Origin: Filobasidium wieringae
Taxonomy: Eukaryota > Basidiomycota > Tremellomycetes > Filobasidiales > Filobasidiaceae
Direction: 5' to 3'
Assembly: GCA_001600055.1 (NCBI GenBank)
Contig: BCIV01000009.1
Location: forward strand, 496,001-560,000
Length of the DNA stretch: 64,000 bases
This document shows, piece by piece, positions 50,369 through 53,472 of the stretch. The notes below the pieces were generated by a model. The model saw only the letters and a list, made by a program, of their open reading frames with translations, had not been told where the DNA came from and did not search any database. Position 1 is the first letter of the stretch. Each line of letters starts with the position of its first letter. A program made the position numbers and the translations under genes.

Positions 50369-53300
50369 TCATTTCCTGTTCCTGTACAGGATTTTAGTCC
50401 CGGGTAGGGGCAGGACAACCATGGTCTGTTTCCAGGACGTCATCAGTAGCTATAAAAGAACAAGTGCGGGAACGGGACATACCTGATAGTTTGTCTTTGG
50501 GAAAGGTCCGTCAAGCTTCATCTCGACATTTCGGATAAAGGTGGCCAGAATGGTCTGCAACTGCAGGTAGGCAAACTGAGAATGGACAAAGGAGTTAGTA
50601 TCGCAGTTCTGGATTGGCATCAACGGTACGATCCCGACTCACGGTTTCTCCAATACACCTGTGTCGCCCAGCACCAAAGGGCTGGTACGGGGACTCGGTT
50701 CCCTTACTGACGGAACCATACCCATAGTCGACCTTGTCCCCGGAAGTGTACTCCTCCAGAGCTTGACTAGCCATACCCTTTTCGTCAGTCCAACGGTGAG
50801 GGTTCCAGATGGATGCGTCGGACCAGATCAAAGGGTCCATCTGAGCGACACCAGGGGAAGCAAGAACGAAGTGACCTTTGGGAACGATGTAGGAGGACTT
50901 CTCGTTGGCAGTAGGGGCCGCAAGTGCGTTGGGTACAGGCATATCAGTCATGACTTTACGCATGATGGAGCTATAGGATGGTCAGAAAGGTTGGTTTTCG
51001 TTCTCAGGTGACTGCAGAAGATGCCTGTACTGACTGAATAGGGGCATGCTGTAGTGAAAACAGGACATATGTTAGCACGATATTCTTGTGCCCGCATTAC
51101 GACCAGGACTGACCATCCTCAAAGTTTCCCTGATAACCGAGTCCAACTTGGGCAGGTCCTTCAAATCCTCATAAGTCATGTCTCGGAAAGTTCCGTCGGG
51201 GTTACCAAACTTCTCCTTCTGCTCCTCGTACAACTCGGCACTATGAGTTGTATCGTTAGTGCGTAGAAAGGATCGATACACGGATTTCGAACCACTCACT
51301 AGACATCGGGTCGGTCAGCCAAGTGCAACAAAGTCCAGGAACTGGTAGCGGAAGAAGTATGTTGACCGGCCATAAGAAGTGCGATCATCATGTGAGCGAT
51401 ATCCGAATCGGAGAGAGGAGTTCCATCACGGTAGGTAGAAGCCATGAGTGCGGCGATCATATCGTGGTCATGCTAGAGTGCAAACACCGAAATCAGCATA
51501 TGCGTCTCGATCATCACCTCACAGGCACTCACCTCGGAAGCACCTTCACGACGACCCCTAATAATGGACTGGTAGAACTCGCTCATCTCCGCTTGAGCCT
51601 TGTCCCTTCGCTTGTAACTAGGCAAGGGCAAGTTGGGGAACATGAAGTTGATAGGAGTGAACCCTCCATCGAGCGCTTCGTAACGTTTGGCAAAAGTCTT
51701 GTCCAACTTTCCCCTGACTTCCTTTCCTTGCAAGGTGGCGGAAGCGGTAAGGATAGTCAATTCTGCCATGGCATGAAGGGCGTTGAAGCCTTTCCATTCG
51801 TTGGAAGGTTTCAAATCCTTTCCGAGGAAATCGAGCGTCTCTTGTTTGATCAGAGGAACGTAGACACGGAAGTTTTCGGTGGAGAGACCGAACTTGACCA
51901 TCCTCTTTTGCTGCATGAGCATTTCGTTGGGACAATCGTAAACGACACCTTTACCGAAAACGGGGGTGGTCAAGTGCTATCATCGACCGAGGTCTGGTCA
52001 ATACGCAGCGTCCTCATCATCAACCCGAAAGTAGGGACTCACAGTATAAGCATCCTCGGCAGAAACCTGGCTCAATTTTCCTCCAAGAATCAAGTTGTTA
52101 CCCTTGGGTCCCAACGCAACCGTCATCTTCCTTCCCAAAAGAATAAAAGTGAACAAGTCCCCGTACTAGTCGGAAAAGAAAAGGCCATCAGCTGCCCGGC
52201 CCCTCCATTGATATCGATACGAAACCCACCTGTTCCCTACAATCGAACAAGAACTTGTAAGGGTCCATTCCATAAGTCGCCGCACTTCCAAACCAAGGGA
52301 TGTAGTGGAACACCAAAGGAGGTAATGTAGGATCCCTAGGCAAGACTTTCTGCCTAAATACGTTTCCTGCGACCAAGAGAACCGGGAGACTCAGGAGCAA
52401 GAGCAGAACGGAACCGATGGTACCGAAGGACGAAAAGAGAGTGGGGAGGAATCCGAGCAGGATGGATTGATCGCTCGAGGTAGTCAGACGGGTGAAGAAC
52501 TTCTTGACGGCCGCTACGTAAGGGGCGAAAGCGGCTCCGCTGGTAGTAGGTACAACGACCAAGACGACTCGAGGTTGCTTAGGGTTGGTAGCCAACTATT
52601 CACACAAGCATATTCGATATCAGCCTTCCTTTGCTCTATTTGTGTAAGGAAATGAGAAATACTGACCGCCTGCAGACTAGCCCTGATCACGTTCAATCCC
52701 ATCTCCCTGACCTCGGCGTCTACTCCGGTACTATCGTTCGTTCCCAAAGAAGAGATGACGACGGAATCCCAGACGTTCCTGTTACGCTCCAAACGAGCAT
52801 CTACAGGAAGGTTCATAGCGAGCGCAGAGAGGGCTTGTAATTCCGCATGAAGAGCTTGAGCGTGGACTGCCAAGATAAGAAATCAGTAAAATTCCCGAGA
52901 GACAAAGAACATGGAAGCGTACGAGAAGTGTTCAAATCGAAAGCACTGGCCATCTTCTTGCCGACCTGACCACCCTTGACGTTGCTCCAAACTCTATCGA
53001 ACCCTTCCTCCAGACCATCCTGGTTCTCCCCCAAGACGTGTCCGACGACCTTTTGTCCACGGATCATGAATGGTTGTAAAAAGTTCATAGTTTCGTACGA
53101 AGGGAAGGAAGGTAGTTCGAAATCGGCCAAGGAATCTTGATAGGTGGGAGGCAAGATGTCGCTGGGTGAAAGATCTCCCTGAATGATGATGACTTTCGCC
53201 TGTTCCTCCCCGGTCAGTTCGGAGGAATGAGATGGATCGACCAGATGAGCCCATGATTTCTTTTGATACTTTTCGAAGGTGGATTGCGATCCTACTCCAA

Positions 53301-53472
53301 AGTGGTTGGCAAAGACGTCGAAGGCTTCATCTCCATCTAGGGTCGGAGCTTTGACAGTGGAAGGAGATGCATCGGGGGAAGGTAGAAGATAGACCGAGAC
53401 GGGGTGCTGGATGATAGCCTTGGCGGGTGCTACGATGGCGGTCGCTACGGCGAGACAAGTGGAGAGACGCAT
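50369..53472 (-). CDS. ERG11: ERG11/CYP51 lanosterol 14-alpha-demethylase, predicted N-terminal fusion to a lumenal domain
   Basis: Eleven exons: 53472-52923, 52866-52667, 52595-52230, 52165-52043, 51976-51533, 51472-51300, 51240-51114, 51048-51035 (14 nt), 50970-50643, 50575-50483, 50425-50369. They give 824 residues. CYP51 parts are unambiguous: [27 protein letters not shown], the I-helix AGQHTSS (about 596-602), ETLRM, and the heme loop [11 protein letters not shown] with Cys about 771. It catalyses 14-demethylation in ergosterol synthesis on the ER. The membrane anchor (about 295-330) is in exon 3, which has no ATG at all. Exons 1-2 precede it in phase 0 and encode a signal peptide ([19 protein letters not shown]) and about 270 residues with NTS and NDS sequons. 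This part faintly recalls fungal Vps3844-type lumenal proteins. CYP51 part: 0.97; the fusion: about 0.55. Confidence 0.8.

Follow-up and report, generated by a model that had tools for sequence, protein, structure and literature searches.

A putative natural fusion of a Vps3844-family lumenal domain to the sterol 14-demethylase CYP51 in Filobasidium wieringae

We analysed a 64,000-nucleotide stretch of the Filobasidium wieringae genome (GCA_001600055.1, BCIV01000009.1:496,001-560,000), hereafter the window, and all positions are given relative to it. Its minus strand carries, from 53472 to 50369, a gene that we model with 11 exons; all introns are GT-AG and 56-71 bases long, and the product has 824 residues followed by a stop codon (Table 1). 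A divergent GNAT acetyltransferase gene lies at 54019-54576 on the plus strand (PF13302, E 1.5e-24), and a dynamitin gene (PF04912; 49010-50207, plus strand) with at least two reading frames converges on the 3' end of the 11-exon gene. What looks like a small gene of several exons lies at 55697-54704 on the minus strand and would encode a membrane protein with multiple hydrophobic segments; the last open frame of this gene had no Pfam match at E 0.1.

Table 1 Features of the 11-exon gene and its upstream region, in window positions.
Feature	Position	Strand	Content
Presumed promoter region	53473..54018	.	546 bases lying between the divergent GNAT gene and the fused gene, measured from start codon to start codon
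Exon 1	52923..53472	-	550 nt; residues 1-183; hydrophobic, signal-peptide-like start and Vps3844 N-domain; matches Naganishia Vps3844
Exon 2	52667..52866	-	200 nt; Vps3844 N-domain continued, to residue 250; in-frame Met239 codon at 52702-52700
Exon 3	52230..52595	-	366 nt; residues 251-372; last N-domain strand, linker, anchor, CYP51 start
Basic pair KK (281-282) and next residue, juxtamembrane	52497..52505	-	[KR]R at the aligned place in relatives
Seam, approximate	52451..52493	-	residues ~285-299; between the last Vps3844-alignable stretch and the CYP51 anchor
Exons 4-11, CYP51	50369..52165	-	52165-52043, 51976-51533, 51472-51300, 51240-51114, 51048-51035, 50970-50643, 50575-50483, 50425-50369 (with stop)

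A previous sequence-only reading of this locus had proposed that CYP51 (ERG11) is fused to an upstream signal-peptide protein. The fused reading frame is real: exons 1-3 are joined in frame by GT-AG introns, and exons 1 and 2 together make 750 nt, which leads into exon 3 in phase 0. Frame 0 of exons 1-2 contains no stop codon, against 13 and 5 in the remaining two frames, and in codon usage it is similar to CYP51 exons 4-11 (mean log-odds 0.175 versus -0.705 and -0.574 for the other frames). An open frame is nonetheless no proof that the upstream domain functions, because the fused frame must stay open even if that domain is useless. The upstream ~250 residues have the hydrophobic start and the sequons that had been described (N181 and N227, the only two among residues 1-330); the signal peptide is predicted from hydropathy alone. 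Exon 3, a single-copy sequence in a genome search, had been described as having no ATG, and it indeed lacks any Met before and through the membrane anchor, which occupies hydropathy windows starting at residues 295-314. Among residues 1-345, Met occurs only at positions 1, 129, 136, 174, 201 and 239.

From about residue 299 onwards, the protein is a complete CYP51/ERG11. The P450 domain (PF00067) covers residues 347-818 with an E value of 8.7e-67, and the translation contains the heme-cysteine, EXXR and CYP51-type I-helix motifs that mark CYP51; AGQHTSS and a second, 15-residue motif (letters not shown) are present in it. Annotated CYP51s are the nearest relatives of this part in a protein search, with identities over shared columns of 85% to the Filobasidium floriforme enzyme (P0002) and 77% to that of Naganishia vaughanmartiniae (P0003). 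Residue 295 to the C-terminal end amounts to 530 residues, in agreement with the length of about 530 given earlier for CYP51 from its anchor. By homology, then, the window gene includes the sterol 14-demethylase. We found one CYP51 copy in the 19.76 Mb assembly; the sole match elsewhere was weak (27% identity, E 5.5e-5) and is presumably another P450.

No Pfam model matched the N-terminal domain of the window protein (N-domain). A profile built from the window protein and P0001, a related sequence discussed below, reached Naganishia onofrii P0020 at E 2.7e-30 among three matches in total, and with P0020 added the profile gave nine matches, with six named Naganishia species. Aligned by hhalign, residues 23-293 of P0020 matched the window N-domain with a probability of 99.5 and an E value of 2.3e-23. 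Four of the five Naganishia proteins scanned passed the cut-off for Vps3844_C (PF12955), and the fifth, P0021, the model of which lacks the Cys-rich stretch, matched only the end of that family. The likeness to Vps3844 that had been noted in the N-terminal pattern is thus borne out by homology to proteins ending in Vps3844_C. We accordingly assign residues ~21-284, by homology, to the lumenal N-domain of the Vps3844 family, the role of which is presumably in vacuolar sorting, to judge from the family name. Identity to the Naganishia proteins is 31-32%, and intron 1 falls at a point where P0025 leaves its frame and where P0020 and P0022 differ by a few residues gained or missing. In all five Naganishia proteins scanned, DUF6859 (PF21656) matches the Vps3844 N-domain below cut-off (E 0.0034 to 0.056), and the two may be one family; as a candidate for the window N-domain, DUF6859 was rejected, having no match to the window.

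The remainder of Vps3844 appears to be missing, as the sequence-only reading had anticipated. A Pfam scan of the 824-residue protein gave no Vps3844_C, and neither a family search nor a sequence search of the genome found it; both genome searches lack a positive control, and in the family search Vps3844_C was matched in 0 of 14 control genomes. Searching the genome with P0020 at E up to 10 returned only exons 1 and 2 of the fused gene, at 35-37% identity, and no second N-domain. Since the N-domain was detected at so low an identity, a missed intact Vps3844 copy is unlikely. In three Naganishia proteins, the Vps3844_C part is 82-97% identical to P0020. The Cys-rich and membrane parts of Vps3844 therefore seem to have been lost from the genome.

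The two parts meet inside exon 3, and not at the exon 2/3 junction where the join had been placed. The start of exon 3, about its first 34 residues with a 19-residue stretch (letters not shown), still aligns with the final strand of the domain in Naganishia, and its later part aligns with the anchor and start of CYP51s. Because the seam lies within one open, unspliced 366-base exon, the junction does not depend on the choice of splice sites. In the Naganishia alignment, ordinary Vps3844 continues after the same strand with an acidic linker, a Cys-rich part and a membrane segment.

A second sequence carries the same seam. This is P0001, a protein 460 residues long that derives from archive data (2 member sequences, 4 contigs) and in which a signal-like start, the N-domain, the anchor and the beginning of CYP51 follow one another in one frame. 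Identity between P0001 and the window protein is 37% over the N-domain and 90% over 96 CYP51 columns, so P0001 does not come from the same genome. The N-domain value is scarcely higher than the 31-32% shared with Naganishia, a point against an inherited fusion. The end of P0001 reads like the intron after DAYT in the window, followed by a frame-shifted reading of the next exon; if so, its frame runs on without introns 1-3, which would mean that the DNA lacks them or that the sequence comes from spliced RNA. That two separate assembly errors gave the same seam is not credible. The metagenome protein P0019 matches exon 1 at 98% identity, differs in its read-through of intron 1 and ends short of the seam. 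Searches for DNA relatives of P0001 in prokaryote and virus contig collections produced 44 and 4 pattern matches, none of them confirmed, as expected of such collections.

A tree of the 96 CYP51 columns separates Naganishia from a group made up of the window protein, P0001 and F. floriforme (81/81) and sets F. floriforme beside P0001 (87/86), inside the group of the two fused sequences. Read literally, this tree implies that F. floriforme either carries the fusion or has since lost it. The CYP51 annotated in that species lacks an N-domain, its first Met standing a few residues ahead of the anchor (MRAGEKVG); its start may be misannotated, the domain may have been lost, or the tree may be wrong. 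Three protein searches, with ~8000 candidates scored in each, found no F. floriforme N-domain protein, free or fused, which is weak evidence against its presence. The 17 other matches to residues 1-380, P0002 included, are CYP51s with lengths of 496-623 residues and a coverage of no more than 23%. In N. vaughanmartiniae, the CYP51 and VPS3844 genes are found on separate contigs, of 74 kb and 599 kb, and are thus not obviously adjacent.

We compared N-domain columns with the first 22 residues and gapped columns left out. Of 129 columns invariant in five Naganishia proteins, the window protein and P0001 have the same residue in 62, compared with 21 of 94 variable columns (Fisher p 8.5e-5), which indicates that slow sites of the N-domain are still slow. 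The Naganishia letter at invariant columns is kept in 54/131 cases by the window protein and in 51/129 by P0001. At variable columns, the window protein matches any of the five Naganishia letters in 39/96, a laxer test, and the 54/131 share is no higher. On these alignments, the N-domain has diverged far from Naganishia. Directly after the domain, a dibasic [KR]R occurs in 6/6 other rows that reach this place (P0001 and the five Naganishia proteins), three further rows falling short. In the window protein the pair is KK, and its first 413 residues contain no [KR]R. The dibasic pair is possibly a processing site of Vps3844 in general, and a Kex2-like release would then be possible in the relatives and less likely in the window protein.

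We consider it likely that the gene is a genuine, inherited fusion of a Vps3844 N-domain to a complete CYP51, encoding one ER membrane precursor. In a Vps3844-family protein, the complete enzyme would have taken the place of the Cys-rich, membrane and tail segments that otherwise follow the N-domain. Transcription would begin in the region before exon 1 and yield one mRNA, to be translated as a single precursor of roughly 90 kDa, as estimated from its length. The signal peptide would take the Vps3844 domain into the ER lumen, and the CYP51 anchor would stop transfer, with the P450 left in the cytosol. The N-terminal side is lumenal in both parent families, Vps3844 and CYP51, so the fusion requires no change of topology. 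The fused protein would stay in the ER, its lumenal part perhaps still working, and an essential enzyme would thereby serve as the membrane anchor of a lumenal domain.

Alternative accounts differ in how far they depart from this fusion. The sequence-only reading had allowed for an assembly join or a deletion between two neighbouring genes, an artefact that we now regard as very unlikely, bordering on negligible. Our DNA-level view does come from one assembly, but the diverged P0001 has the same seam in frame, the seam sits inside one clean exon with no repeat of at least 14 bases found at 52100-53000, and the separate contigs of N. vaughanmartiniae also speak against it. Another account would have CYP51 made mostly from shorter transcripts starting at Met239 (586 residues) or nearby, with exons 1-2 giving a product that is either minor or separate. 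In favour, Met239 is in frame, both fused sequences have Met at this position where the aligned Naganishia rows do not, and the annotated F. floriforme CYP51 begins at a Met just ahead of the anchor. However, the only intergenic DNA available to the gene is that ahead of exon 1, Met239 comes after five other in-frame Met codons, and Vps3844 homology spans exon 1 into exon 3, so that a Met239 product would still carry Vps3844 residues; such a start is unlikely.

The remaining account accepts the fused gene and thus overlaps in its odds with the inherited fusion that we favour. Here the precursor would be cut near the membrane, releasing the Vps3844 domain and an ordinary CYP51, and genes rather than working proteins would be fused. 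The [KR]R shared by the relatives, directly after the last conserved strand, hints at normal release of the domain. Against this stand the KK of the window protein and the habits of the protease: Kex2 requires Arg ahead of its cleavage site and is active in the late Golgi, whereas CYP51 is an ER protein. We think such a cut rather unlikely.

Under the inherited fusion it is possible, and we suggest it tentatively, that a yeast lineage has as its sole sterol 14-demethylase a protein with two sides and two functions, a cytosolic P450 with a lumenal Vps3844 domain doing its old job in the ER. If this is true, Vps3844 could dispense with its Cys-rich part, membrane segment and tail, and sterol synthesis and a secretory-pathway function would be fixed at a 1:1 ratio. 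A natural CYP51-lumenal fusion would make it possible to track Erg11 from the lumenal as well as the cytosolic face of the membrane, and to test directly the function of the little-studied Vps3844 N-domain once its own membrane part is gone. It is also a caution that CYP51 start sites may be misannotated in this clade. Few P450s are as conserved as CYP51, which azole drugs target; the eukaryotic enzyme is regarded as a plain anchored one. In the literature searched, which misses most subscription journals, we found no report of CYP51 fused to a lumenal domain and no paper under the names 'Vps3844' or 'DUF3844'. Neither CYP51 nor ERG11 occurs in the main texts of PMC12866564 and PMC9210288, the second of which names public F. 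floriforme RNA-seq data (SRP256618).

Compared with known systems, the window protein shares with fungal CYP51/Erg11 (F. floriforme P0002, Cryptococcus gattii P0010) the anchor, the full P450 domain and both the 15-residue and AGQHTSS motifs, and differs in its ~295 extra residues ahead of the anchor, with their signal-peptide-like beginning. With the Vps3844 family (Naganishia P0020, P0022, P0023 and P0024) it has in common a signal-like start, the whole lumenal N-domain and the position of intron 1, but it lacks the acidic linker, the Cys-rich EGF-like part and the family's own membrane segment and tail (PF12955), and has CYP51 in their place. The one natural CYP51 fusion met with in the literature searched is the CYP51-ferredoxin of Methylococcus capsulatus (PMC9519919). 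That protein resembles the window protein in being a naturally fused CYP51; it is bacterial, however, and its partner is a redox domain that feeds electrons to the P450, whereas the partner in the window protein would lie across the membrane.
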